This document shows positions 409-58,000 of a stretch of DNA of 64,000 nucleotides, piece after piece. The DNA is from Uranotaenia lowii. Taxonomy: Eukaryota; Arthropoda; Insecta; Diptera; Culicidae. The DNA lies in assembly GCF_029784155.1 (NCBI RefSeq), contig NC_073692.1:425177324-425241323 (forward strand), read 5' to 3'. A model generated the notes under the pieces. That model was not told the DNA's origin, searched no databases, and saw only the letters and a list, made by a program, of their open reading frames with translations. Every line of letters starts with the position of its first letter. Position 1 is the stretch's first letter. A program made the position numbers and the translations under genes.

Positions 409-1125
409 TGTTGTTTTGCCTTAAAAGTCTGCTCGGGATAAGCTTTAGCAGTTACTTTTATTAAACTTTTTTCAAAGTTTTCCATTTTTCCGACGTTAAA
501 TTTTACTTACAGCGAAAGTTGGGCCAACGCTGGCCCTAGCGGTCCCACAACAAGGACAACTTCAAAGAAAAAAAAATTTACTTACAGAATGCCGAAGATT
601 AATGAAGTTTCCTCTGTCGATTGTTGAGAAATTCTGCAATTTGATGTGCTAAGCAAAATGTTTTCAATCTGGGCTGCATCTTAGCAAAGATTCTCTAGGG
701 TACATAATCGCTGGAACTATCTATCTAAATTTCTAAAATGATTCTCAATAATTTCGACGTTCACAAAACCCGCAAGATAAAATAACAGCTAGAAAAAAAG
801 CAAACAACAAGATATCTCAAAAGGGCGATTCACAGATATCGAAAATATTATAATATTTGCGTTTTGTTCCACACAGTTTTTACCCTGACTAATCCAACAT
901 AATTTCAGTTAGTTTGATAATAATCTGCGAATTTCGGATGTGATACATTTTTCTTTAATTTTTTTCAGACAATGTGATAAGCAAAATTTTTTCTGCAAAA
1001 TCTTTCTCCAAACAAATTTGGTCCTATTAAATTTTTGTTGCCACGAAAAAAGAACAATAATATACATTGAAAGAGTGATATTTATGTTGTTGAATATCTG
1101 AATTTTTTTTGGCAAATTCCATTAT
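409..1125. other. AT-rich sequence, no gene seen (except short retroposon at 513-576)
   Basis: Apart from the retroposed insertion at 513-576 I see no coding potential, RNA gene or repeat. A 68-codon minus-strand open frame at 909-1115 is low-complexity and judged random. Confidence 0.5.
513..576 (+). mobile_element. Ultra-short hairpin retroposon, family 1, copy A
   Basis: A 64-nt insertion flanked by a perfect 11-bp direct repeat TTTACTTACAG (502-512 and 577-587). The body is about 55 nt (513-567) and ends in A9 (568-576), the structure left by target-primed reverse transcription. The body contains the hairpin GGGCCA-ACGC-TGGCCC and an outer pairing AAGTTG with CAACTT just before the tail. 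TGGCCCTAGCGG fits the tRNA/SINE A-box consensus if one inserted base is allowed; no B box is visible. A second copy lies at 4318-4375 in opposite orientation. It encodes nothing. I do not recognise a named family. Confidence 0.8.
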
Positions 1126-2040
1126 TATATAGGGGAGAGTGGGGTAACGTGAGCCATGGGGAAACGTGGGCCACTTTGAATATCTCAGATGTGTGATGAG
1201 ATAAAAATCTCAAACCAACTGTTATCGTCGTCGCTTTGCGTAAGCAAAATTTTCTTTATGTTGTTGACTAAAATACGCATCATATGCTTCTTTTATTTAT
1301 CAAACTTTAAAAAGTTAGAAAAATTTACTTAAATAATTGAAAAAGCACAAGCTATTTGCTTCGATGGGGAACCTAAAGTTCATAACAAAAATATGCTCAT
1401 AGGCGTATGATCTTAGTTTTATCATGTTCTTTCACGTGGATAAGGAATTTTTGATGAAACATCAATAAGTCACACAAACGCAACCAATTTGTAAATCATG
1501 GCTTGTGGGGAATCGTGGGCCACTCATCTTGGGCCACCTATAATTTTATGTTTTTATACACATTTAAAACTAAAAATACGTTATTACTATCTATTAAGTT
1601 TTCTTATGCAAAATGAAGAGTTTTGAAAAATATTTTGTCCATTTTTTATAAATAATTTCGCCAAGCAAGTTTTTTGAATCTATTCGATCATACACATGTC
1701 TCTTTCTTATTTCTTCATCTGAAATTGCTTTAAAATAACGAAATGAATTTTCAAATTTCAGTTTTGGGTCAATTCATAAACTTTGCATGTTATTTGGTCA
1801 ATTTAGATATGGTGGCCCACAATTCCCCACCATTTTTCAAAATCGAAAAAATATTGCTTTTTTTAAAACAGCCAGAGCTTGGGGAAAATAACTTATTAAA
1901 AATTAAGGAAAAATGCCTAATAATACCTTAAAAATATAGAAAAGCAAACCATTTTTTATTTTCATTTTATCTTTTATAATGAGAAAGTTATGCAACAAAG
2001 AAAAAAAGTGGCCCATGATTCCCCACTCTCCCATACTATA
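1126..2040. mobile_element. ~915-bp TIR element with repeated GTGGCCCA/TTCCCCAC words
   Basis: Left end TATATAGGGGAGAGTGGGG and right end CCCCACTCTCCCATACTATA are inverted copies with small changes, consistent with a TA-targeting MITE. The interior has no transposase ORF. It repeats a motif of type GTGGCCCAnnATTCCCCAC in both orientations near 1155-1175, 1500-1540, 1811-1831 and 2008-2028, which looks like a set of subterminal binding-site repeats. The 62-codon frame at 1743-1931 is judged a chance ORF. Confidence 0.75.
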
Positions 2041-2109
2041 TTTTCAAATAAACCATTATGAATAAATAAACGAAACAAAAAACAAACGAAAACCGAATTC
2101 GTTCAATTC

Positions 2110-3010
2110 TTGTAAGATATTCGACAACCGAAAATACGACAATTTGAAAGTGTATGATATTTCCGTGAATGCATTCAACGCGCGTACATAAACGGGTGAG
2201 CTATCGTCGTTATGTAACCAAGGTTTTTATAGGTGTCACTGTGACCAGAGTGCCTACAGCTACGGGTGGATGCATATTGAGGAAAAGTAGGCAAGTTTCT
2301 CATTAGTTGGGGGAGGAGACGAAGCGCTTTTTGACAGCCAATTGTTCGCCTACCATGCCTACGATTACGATTGCCTGTCACAAGATGGACGATTCCGTGT
2401 ATTGGTATAAGAACACACCCGAAGTTGTACTCGACCTGACTGTGACCAGCAGGCAGAGGTGCAGTGTCCTGATTTTTCAGGATTTGTACTGGTTTTCGAG
2501 AGACCGTCGTGGTTTTCTAAATTATCCTAGTTTTTGAGAAATGTACTGAATTGTCCTGATTTTGAAAACAAAATATATTAACTGTAATTGAAATCATCAG
2601 GATATCTAACAAATCTGTAAAAAAAATAGTTTAACCGACAATACTCTTCGGTTCAGATGATATTAAAATGATGTTTTCCATATGAATTGCAGACCACCCT
2701 AGATTCTGCTTGCCTCATTTTCTTAAATTAAGGCGTCTGCAGTACTTGTATTTAGCTTTCATTAATGTAATCTATGCTTAATTAGTTATGTCTTGTAAAT
2801 CCTCTTTTTTTTCTTCATGGTGTCCTGATTTTCTATAAAACTACATGGCATCACTGCCTGCAGTTGCATGCAGTGTCCCTATAAGTACCTTGGTTTGATA
2901 ACGACAATATGTCACCCGTTTATATGTACGCGTCTTGAATGCATTCGATGAAATAGCATACCCTTTCAAATCGTCGCGTCGTATTCTCGATTTTCGAAAA
3001 ACTTACAAAA
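2110..3010. mobile_element. Foldback-like element with ~160-bp inverted ends
   Basis: The first ~170 bases (from CTTGTAAGATATTCGAC, through GAATGCATTCAA, GCGTACATAAACGGGTGA and CCAAGG) recur inverted at about 2870-3010 with scattered mismatches and small indels. The centre contains a second, smaller inverted-repeat unit (about 2448-2871). No transposase is visible. Long imperfect terminal inverted repeats with little unique interior fit a foldback or long-TIR MITE. A clear target duplication was not found. Confidence 0.7.
2448..2871. mobile_element. Nested inverted-repeat element inside the foldback element
   Basis: The left end contains AGCAGGCAGAGGTGCAGTG followed by TCCTGATTTTTC. The right end, read in reverse, starts TGCAGGCAGTGATGCC and contains AAATCAGGACACC. 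The pair looks like imperfect TIRs of an element inserted in the larger foldback element. The interior repeats TCCTGATTTT-like words (2468, 2553, 2823). No ORF. Boundaries are approximate. Confidence 0.45.
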
Positions 3011-3169
3011 CCTACATGAAATCGATTATCAATCAACGGGAAAATTTGTTTGTTTTTCTTCATTTGTTTACCTTTGTGGTATATTTAAAAATTTATATTA
3101 TTTAATTTCAATTAAATTTACCTAGAGGTTTTTTTTTAAATAAATATTTATTAACATAAATGGCAATCT

Positions 3170-3385
3170 CATCGTTTTTTTTTTTGGCGTAATGAAATTT
3201 GAACTGTTGAAACTTTTAGGTGGGAAATTTTTCTGCTAAACGAAATACCTAAGTTCCAACGATTATGTCCTTGAAGAAGCTTGGATAATAGGACCTGCGA
3301 TAAAACTTCACATGGGAATCTTCCGCGGGAGGATCGATAGCAGAATTTTCTTTGGCCTTCCAATCGGGAATACGTAAGTTGCAGT
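3170..3385 (-). pseudogene. Possible gag-like (ORF1) scrap of a non-LTR element
   Basis: On the minus strand the interval reads as short peptide segments (for example DPPAEDSHVKFYRR and YYPSFFKDIIV) broken by stop codons, in a style reminiscent of the nucleic-acid-binding ORF1 of Jockey-type mosquito elements. The resemblance is from memory of the family style and is weak. No zinc knuckle is visible. It may equally be chance. Confidence 0.2.
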
Positions 3386-4090
3386 GTTTTTTTTTCATAT
3401 AAGGAATATAAGAACTATTAGATAACTAGAAAAGTAACGAGCATGGGTCGAACAGTTTATGTAAATTTTAAACTAACAGGAAGACTTTTGGCAAAAGTAG
3501 AACTGTTTAAACTCATCGAAATTTTAACCAGAAAGAGATGTAGATCAAAGAATAATAGTTTTTACACGACAACAAAACTTCACTAAAATTTGTTACTTTT
3601 TTCGGACACATTAATATGGACCGTGCTCTTCGTTGGCTCTTATGGCAGAGGATGGACTTGAGTTGGCAATAAGCAGTTATCAACAATAATTATTGTAGAT
3701 AACCTAATCAGGAAAATGTCATGTTACAATGAACTTAATAATAGGAACAGTGTTGGACTCTTCTACGAACTACAATATATTTACGGGTGTGCGCCAGTAG
3801 AGTAATAATAAAATAGATGGACCTTACCAGTCTAATGTCTTCTTCAACATTTTTCCCTTATTTCCGGATGTATCGTTTATCTTCCTTCTTGCACCAATCA
3901 AGTCATCAAAGGACCACATTAGACGAACCAGATTAATCCAAACATGCTGACTGCCTGCTCTGGAAGGCGAAGAGATTCCTCGGAAATGTTTAGCTCCAAA
4001 TCCGATCTGATGGGGCAAATTTTCTTCTTCCGAGTCTTCGATTTGCTTTGCATCGTCGTTGTTGTTCCAGTTACGACGGTTGATTTTTTT
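3386..4090. other. Unassigned AT-rich sequence
   Basis: No convincing coding, RNA or repeat signal. Open frames at 3824-4018 (minus) and 3944-4159 (plus) have no recognisable domains. Confidence 0.45.
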
Positions 4091-4094
4091 TTTG

Positions 4095-4255
4095 AATATT
4101 TACAATTGACATTGAAGAGGCTAGCCCTGAAGCTGGTGGCGACGTACTCCAGCGGCTGAAATACTCACAGTAAGTTGATGAGAACCTTGGCTGGCAGCAA
4201 ATGAAGACACTGGTTCCGGGTCGCCAGCGATTGGAGATTTTATATTTCGGCCCTA
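4095..4255 (+). mobile_element. Diverged 3' fragment of the RTE-like element
   Basis: This aligns by eye with the 3' end of the RTE-like copy at 30813-31073: GAAGAGGC, then CGGCTGAAAT, GATGAGAA, CTTGGCTGG and GAAGACACTGGTTCCGG occur in the same order and spacing as in that copy. It lacks the terminal CACCGGAGGATC and the AAGT-repeat tail. It is an old relic of the C-terminal coding end of ORF2. Confidence 0.55.
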
Positions 4256-4317
4256 CGAGTCGGGAAATCGGCATCGGATCGATATGCAGGTATTTAGAAT
4301 GAACGCGGGATACATTT

Positions 4318-4375
4318 TTTTTTTTAAAGTTGTCCCTGTTGACGAGACCGCTAGGGCCAGTGTTGGCCCAACTTG
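4318..4375 (-). mobile_element. Ultra-short hairpin retroposon, family 1, copy B
   Basis: A 58-nt insertion in reverse orientation, flanked by a perfect 14-bp direct repeat CGCGGGATACATTT (4304-4317 and 4376-4389). Read on the minus strand it is a 50-nt body followed by a poly(A) tail (T8 on the plus strand). The body starts CAAGTTGGGCCAAC and closely matches copy A, including the A-box-like TGGCCCTAGCGG and the closing GGACAACTT. Both copies start at nearly the same base, so the ~50-nt unit appears to be full length. Confidence 0.8.
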
Positions 4376-4389
4376 CGCGGGATACATTT

Positions 4390-8379: not shown

Positions 8380-9180
8380 TCAATACGGTTTACGCGAAAA
8401 ATTAAGTCTTCTGGCAGCAGCAACTGAGCAAGTTGACGGCAATAACAATGCCCTGGATCATCGAAGTTATTTTTGGATCTAGAAAAAGCTTTTGACACGA
8501 TTGACCATACTATTCTACTTCGAAAACTTAAATTTTTTTGGAACCAGACGTAACACATTGTCTCTATTTGCCAGTTATCTTACTTATAGCGAGCAGTACA
8601 TCCAAATCTTCCAATCAATTAGTGACCTTGGAGACTTTCCTGTTGGAGTCCTCCAAGACAACCTTGGACCACTCCTGTTTATGCTTCATGTGACCCACCC
8701 AGATTGGTCTTGCAAGCACCACGATTTTGGAGGCATTATTTTTCAGGTGTCAAGCGTCTTGGTAAAACTTTTTTTTTTCTTTATTACAGAGACTTTCAGC
8801 CTCGGGCTGGTTCGTCTCTCTCTTGGTAAAACTGAAATCATACTTTGATGAGAACTTCCTTTCACTTGAACTTAATAATCAATACCAAACATGTCATCTT
8901 TAGTCTTTAGTCATCGGCTCACCACCAATCACCGTTAGCTCGAACTTTGTATAACGGTAATTGAGCGAGTCAGAACTTTTGAATACTTGGGTCTTAATTT
9001 TGATGAACACATAAGATGAGACAAGCATTGCCTTTAGGGATCCGATCAAATGTCGTTTATCCTAAACTCAAGCCTCTCACATCACATGCTCAGGACTTAA
9101 TGATATGCCTCGGATGGTTACCGACAAAGACGACATCCTACACCAATTCAAACGATGCATACCGTAATATAGGCTGGTAA
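8380..9180 (+). pseudogene. Jockey/CR1-type reverse transcriptase relic
   Basis: The plus strand reads LDLEKAFDTIDHTILL at about 8469-8516 (RT motif A, catalytic Asp present). After a frameshift it continues with LSLFASYLTY and VGVLQDNLGPLLF, the counterpart of the family's GVPQGSxLGPLLF. Further frameshifted pieces (KSYFDENFLSLELNN near 8832-8880) match the region after the catalytic YxDD box, but YxDD itself is not readable. Stops and frameshifts make it non-functional. A 51-nt retroposon interrupts it at 8770-8820. The class (non-LTR RT) is secure; the clade is tentative. Confidence 0.65.
8770..8820 (-). mobile_element. Ultra-short hairpin retroposon, family 2
   Basis: A 51-nt insertion flanked by a perfect 13-bp direct repeat TCTTGGTAAAACT (8757-8769 and 8821-8833). 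On the minus strand it is a 42-nt body ending GTAATAAAG followed by A9. The body folds as an outer stem AGAGAC/GTCTCT and an inner stem CAGCC-CGA-GGCTG, the same two-storey plan as family 1 but unrelated in sequence. It contains AATAAA immediately before the tail. No coding capacity. Confidence 0.8.
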
Positions 9181-9229: not shown

Positions 9230-9990
9230 TATTCACAACTCCTATCTCTACCTCCCCGTGGTATCGGCTAAGATGCGAGTAACCTAAGTGGAGATTGGGT
9301 ACCCAACCCCGGTGGATGCTTTGGTCGCATGCAGACTGAGAAGGTGGCCGCACGCGTCTGTTTCCCAGGTCAGAGCGGCTCAAACAGCGTCTATCTCGCA
9401 GCGAGCGGCTGAATTTATGAAACACGGCTCCCGCCAGCCAAGTCCAAGATGGCAGTCCCATCGCGGGATAGGGACTTTAGGCTAACAATCTACTGCAATG
9501 TAAGATTTCAGTTATCTATTTATTTTAGTTTTTGACTGCTGCCATACAGACCGAATATTAAAATTTACTCATGTTTTAATTAAAACTATTTTAAAGCTAG
9601 GGAACGTTACGGATTGCACATTTAAACATTGATTTGGATACATTGAAGTCAAACAAGTGTGAAACATTGTTGAATACTTGACAACATCGATAAAGCGGTT
9701 GGTTTTGTCCAAAAACTGTTCTGCTTATAGGTAGCCAAAAGGTGGATTGGTTACGCAAACGGCGGGCAATTCATAAAACTGTTACGGAATCCGAAAGCAA
9801 TCACCGACCTGGAACATTGGCGACGACTTTTAGCATGAAAACACGGACACGAATTGGAACTTGGAACGTTTTAACCACAGACAAACAGACAGGACACTTA
9901 GAGGAAAAATCCAACAAATTTTCGCAAGAGATTAAATTGCCATCTGGTGTCGGTATTGCCTACCAATCAGTTTTATCAAAAATAAAAGGA
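9230..9990 (+). mobile_element. 5' relic of an RTE-like element (leader plus start of endonuclease)
   Basis: 9230-9480 is a GC-richer, non-coding stretch. After about 200 bp of AT-rich sequence, 9742-9999 encodes a frame containing RTRIGTWNVLTTDKQTGHLEE. RIGTWNV is the characteristic start of the apurinic-type endonuclease of RTE-like elements. The frame then degenerates. Treating 9230-9480 as the element's leader is an inference from position and composition. Confidence 0.5.
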
Positions 9991-20979: not shown

Positions 20980-22760
20980 TATTTATATGGACGACCCCTT
21001 CCGTTGACCCCTGGCAAAATATTTGACATCTGAAATCGATTGCCGGTCCCTGAAAACTACCGTGTGCAAATTTTCATCCCAATCCGATGTATAATAACGA
21101 CGATATTTAAAAAATATTGAAAGGTTTCTATGGACGACCCCCTTTGCCGGCCCCTTAAACTGAATTGAATACCTGAAATCCATTGCTCATCTCTCAAAAC
21201 TCTCGTGTACCAATTTTCGTATGAATCCGATGGATATTAACGACAATATCGCATCAAAAGTGAATAGTTTACATGGACGAACCCTTTGGTTGACCCCTGA
21301 TTTAGTTTGGATAAGTGAAATCGGTTGATTGTCCCTAATAACTCCTATGTGCAAATTTTCATCCCAATCCGATGTATAAAAACGTCAATATAACTAAGAT
21401 ACTATGAAATGAATTTGCGGCTTTATCGGTGAGGGTTAAAGAGTTGAAATGAAAGACGGATAGAAGATCAGAAGAAAATTCTAAGGTGGTGAAAAGAGCG
21501 AAGAGCATTTGAAATAGAAGCTTGACCACATACTAAATTCTTTGTCCCACACCAATTAACTGTATTGAAGAAGTAGTACCCAATAGAGAAGGCACTACGT
21601 TTTTCGATACAGTTAATTATGGATGGTTCGACCGCCATGTGAGTGTGCACATGTGCCGAACGGACAAAAAATTTAGCATGTGGTTGCTCTGTTAAGTCTT
21701 CTATTGTGCGATATCGTTCCATCGATGGCTAGGTAGATTTCTTATTTTCGTTTTGTGCGGATGTTCCAACTGGATTGAGTTGTCGCATACGGTCAACGGT
21801 CAGAAATCTTGGCCTAACTATTTTCGATTATCGGAACGATGTTTTGTAATTGATTTTTATAGCCGAATTATTTTTTTTTTTTATTATTATTATTTAAGAG
21901 GAGAAATCACCGTGAATTTGTTTTATGAAATGAATTTGCGGCTTTATCGGTGAGGGTTAAAGAGTTGAAATGAAAGACGGATAGAAGATCAGAAGAAAAT
22001 TCTAAGGTGGTGAAAAGAGCGAAGAGCATTTGAAATAGAAGCTTGACCACATACTAAATTCTTTGTCCCACACCACTACTTCTTCAATACAGTTAATTGG
22101 TGTGGGACAAAGAATTTAGTATGTGGTCAAGCTTCTATTTCAAATGCTCTTCGCTCTTTTCACCACCTTAGAATTTTCTTCTGATCTTCTATCCGTCTTT
22201 CATTTCAACTCTTTAACCCTCACCGATAAAGCCGCAAATTCATTTCATAAAACAAATTCACGGTGATTTCTCCTCTTAAATAACTAAGATACTGAAAATT
22301 TAATATGGACGACCCCTTTTGTCGGCCCCTTACACTAAATTTGATACCTCAAATCGATTGCACGTAACTCAAAACTATCGTGTACCAATTTTCATCTGAA
22401 TACGATGTATAATAACGTCAATATCGCAAAAACAGCCAACAGTTAATATGGACGACCCCTTTGGCTGTCCCCTTACGGAAAATTTGATACCTGAAATCGA
22501 TTGCTCGTCTTTCAACACACTCATGTGCAAATTTTCAACACAATCCGACGAAAAATAACGTCAATATCGCGAAAACAATATTTGTCTTGTATGGACGACC
22601 CCCTTCAAAAGGGGTCATCCAAAAATCTGAAAACATTTTTCATCCTTCCTGGTCCTAATGAGTATCCATGCTAAATTTCAGCTCTCTAGCTCTTAAGACG
22701 GCTGAGTCTATAGAGGACAAACAAACAAACATACAGAAATTGCTTTTTATATATATAGAT
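20980..22760. repeat. Near-tandem ~143-bp units (TATGGACGACCCC repeat), interrupted
   Basis: Units begin with ATGGACGACCCC or a close variant at about 20987, 21131, 21273, 22305, 22449 and 22591. Each is followed by a conserved order of phrases: GACCCCTT..., GATACCTGAAATCGATTGC, GTGCAAATTTTCA and AATCCGATGTATAATAACG. The last unit ends in AGGACAAACAAACAAACATA and TTTTTATATATATAGAT, which looks like an element terminus. The gap between units three and four is a later insertion (21404-22279). It is probably part of a transposon with internal repeats; the family is not named. Confidence 0.7.
21404..22279. mobile_element. Young composite insertion with direct plus inverted long repeats, 14-bp target duplication
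   Basis: Flanked by a perfect 14-bp repeat ATAACTAAGATACT (21390-21403 and 22280-22293). Inside, segment A occurs at 21404-21577, again in direct orientation at 21894-22075 (with about 38 extra bases on its left, starting TTAAGAGGAG), and inverted at 22076-22279. The last two make a nearly back-to-back palindrome about 180 bp per arm. I saw no differences between copies. The middle (21578-21893) has no transposase, RT or GIY-YIG signature. The layout recalls Penelope-type direct/inverted terminal repeats or a foldback element; neither is proven. Confidence 0.7.
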
Positions 22761-37080: not shown

Positions 37081-37159
37081 AAAACTGACAAAAAGGACAA
37101 GGGCAGGGCTTACGGGATAAATCACCCAATAGGATGAAAATCCCTGAAAAAAAAAGCCA

Positions 37160-40100
37160 AAAGACAAAAATGACAAAAATGACAAAAATGACAAAAATGA
37201 CAAAAATGACAAAAATGACAAAAATGACAAAAATGACAAAAATGACAAAAATGACAAAAATGACAAAAATGACAAAAATGACAAAAATGACAAAAATGAC
37301 AAAAATGACAAAAATGACAAAAATGACAAAAATGACAAAAATGACAAAAATGACAAAAATGACAAAAATGACAAAAATGACAAAAATGACAAAAATGACA
37401 AAAATGACAAAAATGACAAAAATGACAAAAATGACAAAAATGACAAAAATGACAAAAATGACAAAAATGACAAAAATGACAAAAATGACAAAAATAACAA
37501 AAATAACAAAAATAACAAAAATAACAAAAATGACAAAAATGACAAAAATGACAAAAATGACAAAAATGACAAAAATGACAAAAATGACAAAAATGACAAA
37601 AATGACAAAAATGACAAAAATGACAAAAATGACAAAAATGACAAAAATGACAAACATGACAAAAATGACAAAAATGACACAAATGACAAAAATGACAAAA
37701 ATGACACAAATGACAAAAATTACAAAAATGACAAAAATGACAAAAATGACAAAAATTACAAAAATGACAAAAATGACAAAAATGACAAAAATGACAAAAA
37801 TTACAAAAATGACAAAAACGACAAAAATAACAAAAAAGACAAAAATGACAAAAATGACAAAAATGACAAAAATGACAAAAATGACAAAAATGACAAAAAT
37901 GACAAAAATGACAAAAATGACAAAAATGACAAAAATGACAAAAATGACAAAAATGACACAAAAGGACAAAAATGACAAAAATGACAAAAATGACAAAAAT
38001 GACAAAAATGACAAAAATGACAAAAATGACAAAAATGACAAAAATGACAAAAATGACAAAAATGACAAAAATGACAAAAATGACAAAAATGACAAAAATA
38101 ACAAAAATAACAAAAATAACAAAAATAACAAAAATGACAAAAATGACAAAAATGACAAAAATGACAAAAATGACAAAAATGACAAAAATGACAAAAATGA
38201 CAAAAATGACAAAAATGACAAAAATGACAAAAATGACAAAAATGACAAAAATGACAAAAATGACAAAAATGACAAAAATGACAAAAATGACAAAAATGAC
38301 AAAAATGACAAAAATGACAAAAATGACAAAAATGACAAAAATGACAAAAATGACAAAAATGACAAAAATGACAAAAATGACAAAAATGACAAAAATGACA
38401 AAAATGACAAAAATGACAAAAATGACAAAAATGACAAAAATGACAAAAATGACAAAAATGACAAAAATGACAAAAATGACAAAAATGACAAAAATGACAA
38501 AAATGACAAAAATGACAAAAATGACAAAAATGACAAAAATGACAAAAATGACAAAAATGACAAAAATGACAAAAATGACAAAAATGACAAAAATGACAAA
38601 AATGACAAAAATGACAAAAATGACAAAAATGACAAAAATGACAAAAATGACAAAAATGACAAAAATGACAAAAATGACAAAAATGACAAAAATGACAAAA
38701 ATGACAAAAATGACAAAAATGACAAAAATGACAAAAATGACAAAAATGACAAAAATGACAAAAATGACAAAAATGACAAAAATGACAAAAATGACAAAAA
38801 TGACAAAAATGACAAAAATGACAAAAATGACAAAAATGACAAAAATGACAAAAATGACAAAAATGACAAAAATGACAAAAATGACAAAAATGACAAAAAT
38901 GACAAAAATGACAAAAATGACAAAAATGACAAAAATGACAAAAATGACAAAAATGACAAAAATGACAAAAATGACAAAAATGACAAAAATGACAAAAATG
39001 ACAAAAATGACAAAAATGACAAAAATGACAAAAATGACAAAAATGACAAAAATGACAAAAATGACAAAAATGACAAAAATGACAAAAATGACAAAAATGA
39101 CAAAAATGACAAAAATGACAAAAATGACAAAAATGACAAAAATGACAAAAATGACAAAAATGACAAAAATGACAAAAATGACAAAAATGACAAAAATGAC
39201 AAAAATGACAAAAATGACAAAAATGACAAAAATGACAAAAATGACAAAAATGACAAAAATGACAAAAATGACAAAAATGACAAAAATGACAAAAATGACA
39301 AAAATGACAAAAATGACAAAAATGACAAAAATGACAAAAATGACAAAAATGACAAAAATGACAAAAATGACAAAAATGACAAAAATGACAAAAATGACAA
39401 AAATGACAAAAATGACAAAAATGACAAAAATGACAAAAATGACAAAAATGACAAAAATGACAAAAATGACAAAAATGACAAAAATGACAAAAATGACAAA
39501 AATGACAAAAATGACAAAAATGACAAAAATGACAAAAATGACAAAAATGACAAAAATGACAAAAATGACAAAAATGACAAAAATGACAAAAATGACAAAA
39601 ATGACAAAAATGACAAAAATGACAAAAATGACAAAAATGACAAAAATGACAAAAATGACAAAAATGACAAAAATGACAAAAATGACAAAAATGACAAAAA
39701 TGACAAAAATGACAAAAATGACAAAAATGACAAAAATGACAAAAATGACAAAAATGACAAAAATGACAAAAATGACAAAAATGACAAAAATGACAAAAAT
39801 GACAAAAATGACAAAAATGACAAAAATGACAAAAATGACAAAAATGACAAAAATGACAAAAATGACAAAAATGACAAAAATGACAAAAATGACAAAAATG
39901 ACAAAAATGACAAAAATGACAAAAATGACAAAAATGACAAAAATGACAAAAATGACAAAAATGACAAAAATGACAAAAATGACAAAAATGACAAAAATGA
40001 CAAAAATGACAAAAATGACAAAAATGACAAAAATGACAAAAATGACAAAAATGACAAAAATGACAAAAATGACAAAAATGACAAAAATGACAAAAATGAC

Positions 40101-41997
40101 AAAAATGACAAAAATGACAAAAATGACAAAAATGACAAAAATGACAAAAATGACAAAAATGACAAAAATGACAAAAATGACAAAAATGACAAAAATGACA
40201 AAAATGACAAAAATGACAAAAATGACAAAAATGACAAAAATGACAAAAATGACAAAAATGACAAAAATGACAAAAATGACAAAAATGACAAAAATGACAA
40301 AAATGACAAAAATGACAAAAATGACAAAAATGACAAAAATGACAAAAATGACAAAAATGACAAAAATGACAAAAATGACAAAAATGACAAAAATGACAAA
40401 AATGACAAAAATGACAAAAATGACAAAAATGACAAAAATGACAAAAATGACAAAAATGACAAAAATGACAAAAATGACAAAAATGACAAAAATGACAAAA
40501 ATGACAAAAATGACAAAAATGACAAAAATGACAAAAATGACAAAAATGACAAAAATGACAAAAATGACAAAAATGACAAAAATGACAAAAATGACAAAAA
40601 TGACAAAAATGACAAAAATGACAAAAATGACAAAAATGACAAAAATGACAAAAATGACAAAAATGACAAAAATGACAAAAATGACAAAAATGACAAAAAT
40701 GACAAAAATGACAAAAATGACAAAAATGACAAAAATGACAAAAATGACAAAAATGACAAAAATGACAAAAATGACAAAAATGACAAAAATGACAAAAATG
40801 ACAAAAATGACAAAAATGACAAAAATGACAAAAATGACAAAAATGACAAAAATGACAAAAATGACAAAAATGACAAAAATGACAAAAATGACAAAAATGA
40901 CAAAAATGACAAAAATGACAAAAATGACAAAAATGACAAAAATGACAAAAATGACAAAAATGACAAAAATGACAAAAATGACAAAAATGACAAAAATGAC
41001 AAAAATGACAAAAATGACAAAAATGACAAAAATGACAAAAATGACAAAAATGACAAAAATGACAAAAATGACAAAAATGACAAAAATGACAAAAATGACA
41101 AAAATGACAAAAATGACAAAAATGACAAAAATGACAAAAATGACAAAAATGACAAAAATGACAAAAATGACAAAAATGACAAAAATGACAAAAATGACAA
41201 AAATGACAAAAATGACAAAAATGACAAAAATGACAAAAATGACAAAAATGACAAAAATGACAAAAATGACAAAAATGACAAAAATGACAAAAATGACAAA
41301 AATGACAAAAATGACAAAAATGACAAAAATGACAAAAATGACAAAAATGACAAAAATGACAAAAATGACAAAAATGACAAAAATGACAAAAATGACAAAA
41401 ATGACAAAAATGACAAAAATGACAAAAATGACAAAAATGACAAAAATGACAAAAATGACAAAAATGACAAAAATGACAAAAATGACAAAAATGACAAAAA
41501 TGACAAAAATGACAAAAATGACAAAAATGACAAAAATGACAAAAATGACAAAAATGACAAAAATGACAAAAATGACAAAAATGACAAAAATGACAAAAAT
41601 GACAAAAATGACAAAAATGACAAAAATGACAAAAATGACAAAAATGACAAAAATGACAAAAATGACAAAAATGACAAAAATGACAAAAATGACAAAAATG
41701 ACAAAAATGACAAAAATGACAAAAATGACAAAATGACAAAAATGACAAAAATGACAAAAATGACAAAAATGACAAAAATGACAAAAATGACAAAAATGAC
41801 AAAAATGACAAAAATGACAAAAATGACAAAAATGACAAAAATGACAAAAATGACAAAAATGACAAAAATGACAAAAATGACAAAAATGACAAAAATGACA
41901 AAAATGACAAAAATGACAAAAATGACAAAAATGACAAAAATGACAAAAATGACAAAAATGACAAAAATGACAAAAATGACAAAAATGACAAAAATGA
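37160..41997. repeat. (TGACAAAAA)n array, at least 4.8 kb, running into an assembly gap
   Basis: A 9-bp unit TGACAAAAA is repeated more than 500 times. Variants cluster at the left: two blocks of four TAACAAAAA units starting at 37495 and 38099, and scattered changes at 37650-37850 and 37955. From about 38135 to 41725 I see no variant unit; one 8-bp unit occurs near 41730. Because the period is a multiple of three and lacks stops, giant frames (MTK, DKN, FVI, LSF or HFC repeats) arise on both strands; they are not genes. Confidence 0.97.
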
Positions 41998-49102: not shown

Positions 49103-52100
49103 AAATCTCAAAATGTAAGTTTAGTTAGACCTAGATTTAAGTAAACCATTAAGACACTTACGTCAGATGGTCTTTTTTATAAACAATAAACAATAAACAA
49201 TAAACAATAAACAATAAACAATAAACAATAAACAATAAACAATAAACAATAAACAATAAACAATAAACAATAAACAATAAACAATAAACAATAAACAATA
49301 AACAATAAACAATAAACAATAAACAATAAACAATAAACAATAAACAATAAACAATAAACAATAAACAATAAACAATAAACAATAAACAATAAACAATAAA
49401 CAATAAACAATAAACAATAAACAATAAACAATAAACAATAAACAATAAACAATAAACAATAAACAATAAACAATAAACAATAAACAATAAACAATAAACA
49501 ATAAACAATAAACAATAAACAATAAACAATAAACAATAAACAATAAACAATAAACAATAAACAATAAACAATAAACAATAAACAATAAACAATAAACAAT
49601 AAACAATAAACAATAAACAATAAACAATAAACAATAAACAATAAACAATAAACAATAAACAATAAACAATAAACAATAAACAATAAACAATAAACAATAA
49701 ACAATAAACAATAAACAATAAACAATAAACAATAAACAATAAACAATAAACAATAAACAATAAACAATAAACAATAAACAATAAACAATAAACAATAAAC
49801 AATAAACAATAAACAATAAACAATAAACAATAAACAATAAACAATAAACAATAAACAATAAACAATAAACAATAAACAATAAACAATAAACAATAAACAA
49901 TAAACAATAAACAATAAACAATAAACAATAAACAATAAACAATAAACAATAAACAATAAACAATAAACAATAAACAATAAACAATAAACAATAAACAATA
50001 AACAATAAACAATAAACAATAAACAATAAACAATAAACAATAAACAATAAACAATAAACAATAAACAATAAACAATAAACAATAAACAATAAACAATAAA
50101 CAATAAACAATAAACAATAAACAATAAACAATAAACAATAAACAATAAACAATAAACAATAAACAATAAACAATAAACAATAAACAATAAACAATAAACA
50201 ATAAACAATAAACAATAAACAATAAACAATAAACAATAAACAATAAACAATAAACAATAAACAATAAACAATAAACAATAAACAATAAACAATAAACAAT
50301 AAACAATAAACAATAAACAATAAACAATAAACAATAAACAATAAACAATAAACAATAAACAATAAACAATAAACAATAAACAATAAACAATAAACAATAA
50401 ACAATAAACAATAAACAATAAACAATAAACAATAAACAATAAACAATAAACAATAAACAATAAACAATAAACAATAAACAATAAACAATAAACAATAAAC
50501 AATAAACAATAAACAATAAACAATAAACAATAAACAATAAACAATAAACAATAAACAATAAACAATAAACAATAAACAATAAACAATAAACAATAAACAA
50601 TAAACAATAAACAATAAACAATAAACAATAAACAATAAACAATAAACAATAAACAATAAACAATAAACAATAAACAATAAACAATAAACAATAAACAATA
50701 AACAATAAACAATAAACAATAAACAATAAACAATAAACAATAAACAATAAACAATAAACAATAAACAATAAACAATAAACAATAAACAATAAACAATAAA
50801 CAATAAACAATAAACAATAAACAATAAACAATAAACAATAAACAATAAACAATAAACAATAAACAATAAACAATAAACAATAAACAATAAACAATAAACA
50901 ATAAACAATAAACAATAAACAATAAACAATAAACAATAAACAATAAACAATAAACAATAAACAATAAACAATAAACAATAAACAATAAACAATAAACAAT
51001 AAACAATAAACAATAAACAATAAACAATAAACAATAAACAATAAACAATAAACAATAAACAATAAACAATAAACAATAAACAATAAACAATAAACAATAA
51101 ACAATAAACAATAAACAATAAACAATAAACAATAAACAATAAACAATAAACAATAAACAATAAACAATAAACAATAAACAATAAACAATAAACAATAAAC
51201 AATAAACAATAAACAATAAACAATAAACAATAAACAATAAACAATAAACAATAAACAATAAACAATAAACAATAAACAATAAACAATAAACAATAAACAA
51301 TAAACAATAAACAATAAACAATAAACAATAAACAATAAACAATAAACAATAAACAATAAACAATAAACAATAAACAATAAACAATAAACAATAAACAATA
51401 AACAATAAACAATAAACAATAAACAATAAACAATAAACAATAAACAATAAACAATAAACAATAAACAATAAACAATAAACAATAAACAATAAACAATAAA
51501 CAATAAACAATAAACAATAAACAATAAACAATAAACAATAAACAATAAACAATAAACAATAAACAATAAACAATAAACAATAAACAATAAACAATAAACA
51601 ATAAACAATAAACAATAAACAATAAACAATAAACAATAAACAATAAACAATAAACAATAAACAATAAACAATAAACAATAAACAATAAACAATAAACAAT
51701 AAACAATAAACAATAAACAATAAACAATAAACAATAAACAATAAACAATAAACAATAAACAATAAACAATAAACAATAAACAATAAACAATAAACAATAA
51801 ACAATAAACAATAAACAATAAACAATAAACAATAAACAATAAACAATAAACAATAAACAATAAACAATAAACAATAAACAATAAACAATAAACAATAAAC
51901 AATAAACAATAAACAATAAACAATAAACAATAAACAATAAACAATAAACAATAAACAATAAACAATAAACAATAAACAATAAACAATAAACAATAAACAA
52001 TAAACAATAAACAATAAACAATAAACAATAAACAATAAACAATAAACAATAAACAATAAACAATAAACAATAAACAATAAACAATAAACAATAAACAATA

Positions 52101-53563
52101 AACAATAAACAATAAACAATAAACAATAAACAATAAACAATAAACAATAAACAATAAACAATAAACAATAAACAATAAACAATAAACAATAAACAATAAA
52201 CAATAAACAATAAACAATAAACAATAAACAATAAACAATAAACAATAAACAATAAACAATAAACAATAAACAATAAACAATAAACAATAAACAATAAACA
52301 ATAAACAATAAACAATAAACAATAAACAATAAACAATAAACAATAAACAATAAACAATAAACAATAAACAATAAACAATAAACAATAAACAATAAACAAT
52401 AAACAATAAACAATAAACAATAAACAATAAACAATAAACAATAAACAATAAACAATAAACAATAAACAATAAACAATAAACAATAAACAATAAACAATAA
52501 ACAATAAACAATAAACAATAAACAATAAACAATAAACAATAAACAATAAACAATAAACAATAAACAATAAACAATAAACAATAAACAATAAACAATAAAC
52601 AATAAACAATAAACAATAAACAATAAACAATAAACAATAAACAATAAACAATAAACAATAAACAATAAACAATAAACAATAAACAATAAACAATAAACAA
52701 TAAACAATAAACAATAAACAATAAACAATAAACAATAAACAATAAACAATAAACAATAAACAATAAACAATAAACAATAAACAATAAACAATAAACAATA
52801 AACAATAAACAATAAACAATAAACAATAAACAATAAACAATAAACAATAAACAATAAACAATAAACAATAAACAATAAACAATAAACAATAAACAATAAA
52901 CAATAAACAATAAACAATAAACAATAAACAATAAACAATAAACAATAAACAATAAACAATAAACAATAAACAATAAACAATAAACAATAAACAATAAACA
53001 ATAAACAATAAACAATAAACAATAAACAATAAACAATAAACAATAAACAATAAACAATAAACAATAAACAATAAACAATAAACAATAAACAATAAACAAT
53101 AAACAATAAACAATAAACAATAAACAATAAACAATAAACAATAAACAATAAACAATAAACAATAAACAATAAACAATAAACAATAAACAATAAACAATAA
53201 ACAATAAACAATAAACAATAAACAATAAACAATAAACAATAAACAATAAACAATAAACAATAAACAATAAACAATAAACAATAAACAATAAACAATAAAC
53301 AATAAACAATAAACAATAAACAATAAACAATAAACAATAAACAATAAACAATAAACAATAAACAATAAACAATAAACAATAAACAATAAACAATAAACAA
53401 TAAACAATAAACAATAAACAATAAACAATAAACAATAAACAATAAACAATAAACAATAAACAATAAACAATAAACAATAAACAATAAACAATAAACAATA
53501 AACAATAAACAATAAACAATAAACAATAAACAATAAACAATAAACAATAAACAATAAACAAAA
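48206..53563 (+). mobile_element. 5'-truncated Jockey-like element with 4.4-kb tail array, inserted in the R1-like element
   Basis: The insertion starts just upstream of RT motif C (NDINMLLAGSGVLMYADDLK), runs to a stop at 49100, continues through a short 3' untranslated region (49103-49178) and passes without a break into (AATAAAC)n. The array is therefore the element's own 3' tail, greatly expanded. The flanking R1-like coding sequence resumes at about 53564. Possible diverged target duplication: AAAATGATATGGC (left) and AAAAGTGAAATCAC (right); weak. Confidence 0.75.
49179..53563. repeat. (AATAAAC)n array, about 4.38 kb, ~626 units
   Basis: A 7-bp unit AATAAAC repeats from ATAAACA at 49179 to about 53563. 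On reading I found no variant unit except at the right edge (AAACAAAAC). The plus strand contains no G at all. Each unit contains AATAAA, the canonical poly(A) signal. The minus-strand frames of about 1,470 codons (LLFIVYC repeats) are artefacts of a stop-free repeat. Confidence 0.97.
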
Positions 53564-55064: not shown

Positions 55065-58000
55065 GGGCTAGGTGGGGTAATTATGAACAAAATTTCTTCA
55101 TTTGGCACACTTACAGTCACCTTATGTTTATTTCTTATCGCAAACTCTGAAAAGCTGCCAATTATGAATGTTTTCGTGCTCTTCATCATTCTGTAGAACA
55201 ACTTTTTGTTTTTGGTCGCAACCTATGTCCTTGAGACGTCTGTTCATAATTACCCCGTCTGTTCATATTTACCCCCCTCTCTAGGGGGTAATTATGAACA
55301 CGGATTACGAAAGGGGTATACATTTTTTGAAAAGTAATTGTAGTTATACGTTACATTTACCCATAGTAAGTAGTGTTTGGTGATTTTTTACTTAAAAAAT
55401 TATGTTCATAATTACCCCGAACGCTGTTCATATTTACCCCGAGACTTGTCCAATATGATTTATATGGTGTCAGAAAATCTTAACTCAACACCAAACAATG
55501 AAAATAATAAGCAGAAATAAGTAAATGGGTTGTTTTATAAAAACTCAATTCAATTAATGTATAAAATTTGTAAAATAAACAAATTTAGAGGTAAAGCAAA
55601 ACAAAAAATAGCAATTTAGTGTTCTTTTTTATTGATTTTTCTATCTTTTGTTTCGGTAGTTCAATTTTCAGATGCATCTTTTACGTTTTAGTTGGTTTCT
55701 TTTTCTTTCGTTTCTTTATGTCGTTGTAGATCATTTTTATTTGATAGGACCTCTCCATACGTGTGAAAATTTAGGCGAGTTAGACAACTCAACAGTTTTT
55801 ACATCCGTTTTAAATGTCCTGCGCAGCAAACATCAAGTTTTCATCTGAATGTCGTGGGTTAGGCTTTTCACGTACGTGCGAGATATCATGAAATTGAAAC
55901 CTATACATATACAGAAAATTCTAATTTTTTTAAAAGATGGTGGTTTCATAAAAACACTTATTAAAATCTTTTTGGATTAGTGAACATTCATTTTTTCAAG
56001 GCTTGTCAGTTCTATACGATCGACTGTTTTGAAAAATATTTACACTAATTAATTTTTTTATCACCTATACGAAATTTCTCATTAGTAGCTCTATTTTTTT
56101 TTTCTTTTAAATCTGCAGTAATTTCCTCACAAAACTGAAAGAGAAAATCTTCAACCAAAAGATTTTCATTTTGTACTAAATTAAAAAAATGTATTCGAAC
56201 AAATTAAGATTGAAAAAAGTAACCAAGTATTAAAATAAGACTGCTAGAAAATAGATTTTGAATCTTTGTTATCCGAATGTAACTCATAAATAATTATTAT
56301 TTGCTGTAATTTTAATGCTTGAATAGCAACACGTTGTCCAAACACACAGGAAAATTTATCTTTTTGATTTTTGTTTTGTGGACTTATTCACCTATTAAAT
56401 TTATCATGGTTTTTCATATATTATACTGTTGACCACAGAGATTTAAGGTTCATATTAATGTTAAATTTCACGCGGTAATGAATAAAAGCTCGAGCAGCAA
56501 ACGTTTTGTTTAAAAATGATGAATTTTATTTTTATTAAAATTAAAAATTTCTACAAGTCTAGTTTATAACCTTGTTATTTTTCAATCCAAAAAAAAAACT
56601 GGTTTTGAAAGGACGTAAAACCTGTATTCGGTAATAGAGAACTATTCCTGGGATACAGGTTTTCGGTTTCGGTATTACCGGTAAAACTATCCTTACGCAC
56701 CACTCACTTAATCTAAGAAAACATTTGATTGCCTTTTTTCTATCAACAAAAACAAGTTCTTATTACTATTTTTTTTTAAATAAAATTAAGACTTGTTTAA
56801 ATATGGTTACGCGAGCTTTTTTTTTTCAAATTTTATTTTCAGTTTTGATAAAATTGTGTTCAAAAGTTTTTTTCAAAGACTGAAAAGAATTGGCATAGCT
56901 TTTTTTTTCCAAATCCAAATCTCATATTTATAAAAAAAAACTCAATTTCTCAAAAATTCAAAACTCAACACTTAACGCATTGCGGACCTCAGTTAAATAG
57001 GAAATTAATTGAATTTGGCCAGTGGATTCTGTGAGCGCTGATGTGGTCTAGCGGATAGGCTCGTTCTTCCAAAATATACCAACACCAGCACAATACATTC
57101 ATCCACAACAGTTAATACGAAGCCATTGGGTTTGGAGATTTGTCGAAATTAATAATCAAGAAGGCATGTGAGGCATATTTAGGCAGAAACTGCGGTGAAT
57201 CTGTGCACCCATGGTGGATAACTACAATACATACATACATTCTGTGATATAGAATGCCGAGTGTTGATACTTCCCGGCTAAGATTTCTACGCGGTCCTAA
57301 ATTTATTAAGATCTTAAAGTCTGCTTCATTTAATATTGGAACAAATTCTTTTGCTCATTGTGGCGCTCCTAGTGGACGGATTTGGAAACTTTTTTCACCC
57401 ACGTGTCGGGAAATTCATTACCTTTCACCATGTATTTATGTCATAACACCAAACGATAGCATTTTGTAAACAACCGCCATGGAAGCCGAACGGAGAGATC
57501 AAATTGTGCACACTATTTACTGAAGGGGGAAGGACGGGGGGAGAGGGTAGTTTTGTAAGATTTTTTTTTTACAAGGGGAGGAGGGGGAAAGGGGTCTGGA
57601 AATGCTTTATTAATTAGTAAATGGCCCCCTAAGTAGATGAATAAAACATTTGACCATCGAAAAGCGAAAGAAATGGCAGTAAATGCATAAGAATATGTGT
57701 TCATAATTACCCCATAGGACGAAAACTATGGGGTAAATATGAACACTCATCTGTAAATCAGTGCGAATAAAATTTTTCAAAATTTCTTCCAAATCCAGAC
57801 AAAGCATCATAAACTAGATGTAAAACAGGTGATAACAACATTCCAGTTGGATTTCCTATGATCAGATAAACAAAACATTGAACATTGTCGAAAACGATTT
57901 CCGTTTCACGGGGTAATGGTTTTTTAAAACATCTGAAATGATATCATTAGGATTTGAAAACAGATCAGAAACAGCTTATAGTTATCAATTGGATGTTAAA

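Follow-up and report, generated by a model that had tools for sequence, protein, structure and literature searches.

Within the 64,000 nucleotides of the Uranotaenia lowii genome that were analysed here (the window), 51 nt at 8770-8820 are flanked by two perfect copies of the 13-bp sequence TCTTGGTAAAACT and read on the minus strand as a 42-nt body followed by A9. This raises the question of what kind of element moves as so short a unit and what sets its 5' end. The initial annotation had described a hairpin retroposon bounded by the duplication, with AATAAA before the tail, and this description was borne out at 8757-8833, where one G separates the motif from the tail (Table 1). The claimed fold was also recovered: at -15.7 kcal/mol (z -5.29 against dinucleotide shuffles, none of 200 being as stable), the body forms an outer 6-bp stem AGAGAC/GTCTCT, an internal loop, an inner 5-bp stem CAGCC/GGCTG and a 3-nt loop. 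The hairpin core matched once within the window at up to 3 mismatches and not at all in 100 shuffles. By eye, the 42-nt body shows no SINE-type head (pol III promoter; tRNA-, 5S- or 7SL-like), and an Rfam scan of the window at gathering scores returned nothing.

Table 1. Positions in the window of the insert, its parts and the neighbouring features.
Feature	Position	Strand	Remark
Family 1 copy between 11-bp duplications (body and tail 64 nt)	502..587	+	
Family 1 copy between 14-bp duplications (body and tail 58 nt)	4304..4389	-	
Putative piece of older reverse-transcriptase relic interrupted by the element	8446..8550	+	RVT_1 match in Pfam under the cut-off (E 5.9e-4)
Target-site duplication copy 1, TCTTGGTAAAACT	8757..8769	.	
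A9 tail	8770..8778	-	
42-nt body, hairpin-only retroposon, CGAG loop type	8779..8820	-	Core has 498 exact genome copies
AATAAA, single G between motif and tail	8780..8785	-	
Hairpin AGAGAC-GAAC-CAGCC-CGA-GGCTG-AAA-GTCTCT	8788..8819	-	Folded
Target-site duplication copy 2	8821..8833	.	

It had further been claimed that the element interrupts an older reverse transcriptase (RT) relic. This stood in part: a 35-aa piece matched Pfam RVT_1 at 20 bits, below the cut-off of 29.6 bits, and a 91-aa piece in another frame (8483-8755) gave no match in the Pfam search. An RT relic around the insert, in a decayed region, is thus weakly supported.

The core pattern GACGAACCAGCC-N4-GCTGAAAGTC was searched exactly in the 1.078-Gb assembly and matched 498 places, compared with 0 for a reversed-pattern control. 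We read 90 of the first 100 places listed (30 + 40 + 20) and the window copy, 91 copies in all. By upstream similarity, 61 of them are hairpin-only, 22 belong to a SINE, seven are LINE-extended and one (L003) belongs to a third element. The loop is CGAG in 33 copies, including the one in the window, AAAG in 30 and CAAG in 24, while four other types occur once each. CGAG copies were hairpin-only in 32 of 33 cases and never part of a LINE. Within the set with intact hairpins, AAAG or GAAG loops occurred in 24 hairpin-only and seven longer copies as against 2 and 22 for CAAG (p 3e-7). When the upstream stretches of the 61 hairpin-only copies were compared all against all, no pair was similar up to the hairpin. 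An A-rich 3' tail is a feature of the copies, with L043 and L051 as exceptions; the match at 600 in L051 is an ATAG-loop hairpin without an A-tail and has, by eye, TGACCGTT on both flanks. That the insert belongs to a real retroposon family with further copies is therefore confirmed by the 498 exact matches, of which those read mostly carry short duplications and A-tails. Divergent copies of this family with 1-4 substitutions were absent from the window and the loci searched, and the core pattern had 0 matches in IMG/VR. A scan of 308 kb of window and loci for other A-tailed short insertions (duplication at least 11 bp, body 25-150 nt) revealed no related hairpin by eye; it returned low-complexity repeats, family 1 (described below) and single matches in L006, L077, L079 and at window position 55241.

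Of the 61 hairpin-only copies, 40 are flanked by correctly placed duplications of 9 bp or more (mean 11.8 bp), whereas re-paired flanks reached 9 bp in 3 of 400 control trials. Of the remaining 21 copies, 11 have 6-8 bp, three (L017, L087, L098) have a longer match elsewhere and seven have none; in L017, L022 and L098 a duplication that the script had missed or misplaced was found by eye. SINE copies have duplications of 8-14 bp in 20 of 22 cases, and the lengths in hairpin-only copies are alike. Target-site duplications of variable length are what is expected of a retroposon inserted by target-primed reverse transcription.

Loop apart, the same 3'-terminal hairpin terminates the LINE copies L078 and L081 and a tRNA-like SINE, in agreement with the earlier tie between the retroposon and a LINE. 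L078 is an almost complete LINE, though a broken one, whose ORF2 contains two in-frame stops. Pfam matches to endonuclease (PF14529, PF03372) and RVT_1 lie above the cut-off and RNase H just below it; the upstream ORF pair is gag-like by eye, and the upstream ORF and the last ORF piece had no Pfam match. The ORF2 stop lies 16 nt before the hairpin, so that through L078 the hairpin copies share their 3' end with an RT-coding element. L081/L082 represent a second LINE with the same tail and 74-78% DNA identity to L078, and the seven LINE copies belong to a group with endonuclease, RT and RNase H. A search for the LINE protein in IMG/VR gave 3 pattern matches, none of which was confirmed. The SINE is the long form of the CAAG type. 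Its tail is preceded by about 165 nt in which A- and B-box-like motifs can be made out by eye, and the first eight copies have duplications of 8-14 bp; ARAGORN called no tRNA on L002, L007 and L008. Similarity among the 22 SINE copies extends over 158-163 nt; L088 is the exception and starts about 16 nt before GAC. A rare third element with a CGAG tail has about 150 nt upstream of the hairpin in common between L075 and L076; it occupies 4 places, and no other longer CGAG form was seen, nor any CGAG-type LINE among the copies read. Rfam had no match on L074, L071 and L008 up to E 1. Independently of the hairpin, L076 contains a drz-agam-1 ribozyme match at 9669-9784 (39.4 bits; gathering score 37). 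The sequences upstream of the hairpin in the two LINEs, the SINE and the third element differ from one another, yet the point at which bodies start does not. Since 30 longer elements of these three kinds carry the same 3' tail, the 42-nt body is best read as the 3'-terminal hairpin of a LINE that was mobilised alone.

Where this unit begins could be narrowed down from the flanking bases. In the 40 copies with duplications the start of the body ranges from 1 nt inside GAC to 8 nt outside it, with 32 of them at 2-6 and a peak at 4-5; some 5' junctions carry extra bases, which makes the boundary less sharp. Among AAAG hairpin-only copies (n=24), 21 share with both LINEs a T or C at position -4, and only six have the C of the LINEs at -5, which places the boundary 1 nt outside the outer stem. 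CGAG hairpin-only copies (n=32) have A at -3 in 26, at -4 in 18 and at -5 in 15. Taken together, the counts in both types put the start at the outer stem or 1-2 nt outside it. A 5' end that lies 9 to about 150 nt upstream is seen in few of the 91 copies; by their duplications, L003 ends at 32 and L088 at about 16. L057 and L067 resemble the LINE over only 18 and 123 nt, values that describe the extent of similarity and not mapped ends.

The 498-copy pattern requires the inner half of the outer stem and is therefore blind to copies cut inside the hairpin. Accordingly, we also searched with the 3' half, and such copies were found. The CGAG-type 3' half GCTGAAAGTCTCTATAATAAAG (AATAAAG tails) has 199 genome places, of which all 41 on C1 or within the first 53 Mb of C2 were sampled (24 from the core set and 17 more). 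L003 alone reads past the hairpin region, and 23 of the 41 start at the outer stem or at most 3 nt from it. In L121 and L128 the start lies at the outer stem or slightly inside it, and L120, L122, L124, L125 and L129 have changes or a deletion within the hairpin. At ten places, which represent nine events, less than the full hairpin is present. The inner stem is the starting point in L115, L116, L119, L123 and the pair L126/L127, duplicates with identical flanks. L117 and L118 begin near GGCTG, in the 3' strand of that stem, as L114 and L130 probably do too, although these two lack a clear duplication. The other eight short places have duplications of 9-13 bp. For the SINE-type 3' half GCTGAAAGTCTCTATAATAAGAAA, with 127 genome places, 26 of the 30 in the same C1/C2 region were sampled (4 on C2 were left out). 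These tails continue into the SINE in 24 of 26 cases, four of which were seen for about 95 nt only, and L088 and L134 are cut near the hairpin. Read-through is thus 24/26 for the SINE type compared with 1/41 for the CGAG type (Fisher p 8e-15); the scoring is borderline for L003, counted as read-through with an extension of only 32 nt, and for L088, counted as cut at about 16 nt.

The initial annotation had proposed that the hairpin itself is recognised, and had named compensatory stem changes as support for structural selection and freely accumulating unpaired ones as evidence against it. Variants with the first inner-stem base changed numbered 17 (control 1). Eleven of these have at least one broken pair and six are fully paired, mostly by G-U, while a compensatory two-sided change was present in a single one (C3:79284303). 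The stems therefore accumulate unpaired changes, and structural selection among the copies finds little support; the variant copies are probably for the most part dead insertions. With stem variants that are mostly broken, and with 3'-half-only copies that have duplications of their own, the proposal of recognition went unsupported. The half-hairpin copies weigh against the need for a whole stem-loop in the inserted copy. By analogy with stringent LINEs, hairpin recognition by a LINE RT is plausible.

We favour, with about even confidence, the explanation that the insert is a hairpin-only retroposon, placed by target-primed reverse transcription and made of a LINE 3' hairpin and its A-tail, whose template RNA was already short and trimmed to the stem base. 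The source would be the 3'-terminal hairpin and A-tail of the LINE group that codes for endonuclease, RT and RNase H. The RNA of such a LINE, or a read-through RNA, may lose its 5' side back to the stem base, for instance to a 5'-to-3' exonuclease that stops when it meets the hairpin or bound RT protein. The RT would then copy the pre-shortened template to its end, and target-primed insertion would leave a duplication of about 12 bp. A different course of events, which we rate as a real possibility though short of even, is abortive reverse transcription, in which the RT copies the tail and hairpin of a full LINE RNA and usually releases at the hairpin base, so that the insertions are extreme 5'-truncated LINE copies. 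Truncation at the 5' end is well known for LINEs, as passages of PMC3747384 set out, the half-hairpin copies indicate that truncation can occur inside the hairpin, and the LINE T or C at -4 was retained in 21 of 24 AAAG copies. However, at 24 of 26 places the RT had continued beyond the same stems on SINE RNA, which means that it is able to traverse such a hairpin, whose base is no absolute stop; a template that already ends there is therefore the better, though unproven, account. The scarcity of ends between 9 and about 150 nt upstream also speaks against release during copying. On the other hand, the CAAG loop of the SINE differs from the CGAG loop of the short copies, so that RT behaviour might differ as well. 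Moreover, if the RT must bind a whole hairpin, the short copies were truncated after binding, which would favour truncation during copying.

It is improbable, in our view, that CGAG source loci give rise to an RNA of about 50 nt that amplifies as an independent SINE with no LINE parent. CGAG is the commonest loop (33 of 91), 32 of these 33 copies are hairpin-only with no LINE, and tail variants recur among them (AATAAAGAT in five including L003, GTAATAAAG and ATTATAAAG in two each). These shared variants could, however, stem from LINE copies that were not read; the 42 nt contain no internal promoter recognisable by eye, and AAAG hairpin-only copies keep the flanking base of their LINE. We see next to no chance that the insert is a MITE-type DNA transposon or a product of chance. 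An imperfect inverted repeat does lie between the duplications, and the L051 hairpin between TGACCGTT copies has no A-tail by eye, but A-tails, duplications of varying length, 498 copies versus 0 for the control and a 3' end common to LINE and SINE tell against it for the family, L051 aside.

Our preferred reading, a template trimmed before copying, may extend to the first family of short insertions in the window (family 1; Table 1). Its core has 19 exact genome places, of which we read 11 (nine distinct insertions; L103, L106 and L111 share flanks) besides the two in the window; six listed places were left out. The bodies mostly begin with CGCAAGTTGGG or a few nt away. The initial annotation had regarded its fold as parallel to that of the second family, which did not hold, as the minimum-energy fold consists of two hairpins in a row and not of one with an internal loop; CGC/GCG closes the first in 5 of 8 sequences folded. 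An architecture common to both families was rejected, since the forced three-way fold was 1.5-6.2 kcal/mol worse (8 sequences folded, of 13 copies). What is common to both is that the structure's first base pair marks the start of most bodies read, to within a few nt. It is a tentative and rather unlikely generalisation that the 5' end of the mobile unit is set by RNA structure or a protein footprint and not by a promoter, with any RNA that carries the LINE hairpin and an A-run being trimmed to the first base pair and re-inserted, and with the unrelated tails of families 1 and 2 doing so in parallel. If true, 42-nt hairpins would multiply from read-through transcripts.

The two family 1 copies in the window (502-4389) have opposite orientations and are separated by about 3.8 kb. 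Pairs spaced by 2.9-3.8 kb were also seen at C2:293.08 Mb, C2:424.71 Mb and C3:207.50 Mb, which suggests that they are part of a larger repeated segment. The window contains further repeats. About 626 near-identical ATAAACA units occupy 49103-53561, starting about 75 nt beyond the stop codon of an ORF, RT-like by eye, as if the satellite had been seeded by the 3' repeat tail of a LINE. A satellite of about 538 AAATGACAA copies at 37159-41997 runs into an N stretch, and similar repeats surround the element copies in L076 and L087. Two tandem arrays (20982-21299 and 22300-22577) have a similar 143-bp unit.

The cause of 5' truncation in LINEs is an old question. LINE-tail copies that mostly stop at one point, set against SINEs with nearly the same tail that pass it, provide a natural comparison of RT stopping with a pre-trimmed template. 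Insertions of about 50 nt are probably missed by repeat annotation, and hairpin-only LINE-tail copies were undescribed in the titles and abstracts searched, with few search terms aimed at them and mostly open-access coverage.

MosquI elements are LINEs of the I clade. The Gecko SINE of Aedes aegypti is paired with the I-74_AAe and MosquI LINEs according to passages of PMC3747384. The SINE described here, a tRNA-like mosquito SINE with a LINE 3' end, is of this general kind; unlike in our case, the passages on Gecko contain no hairpin-only copies (PMC3747384). In stringent LINE/SINE pairs, such as zebrafish ZfL2-1 and ZfL2-2 and eel UnaL2, the partners have a 3' tail with a stem-loop in common, as described in parts of PMC4176376. 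The same parts report that the ORF2 protein of zebrafish LINEs binds the 3' stem-loop, in assays on two L2-clade LINEs, and that the CR1, Tad1 and RTE clades also include stringent-type pairs (PMC4176376). Similarly, LINE and SINE here carry the same 3' stem-loop tail, to which RT binding is putative, whereas the majority of the copies read have nothing but the stem-loop and tail, which differs from the pairs in those parts of PMC4176376. The same 3' end, A-tail and duplications are also found in 5'-truncated LINE copies. In the account given in passages of PMC3747384, however, LINE copies are mostly truncated at various positions and 100 to 1,000 bp long, whereas those described here are about 42 nt long and, where read, mostly begin at a single point of the structure.
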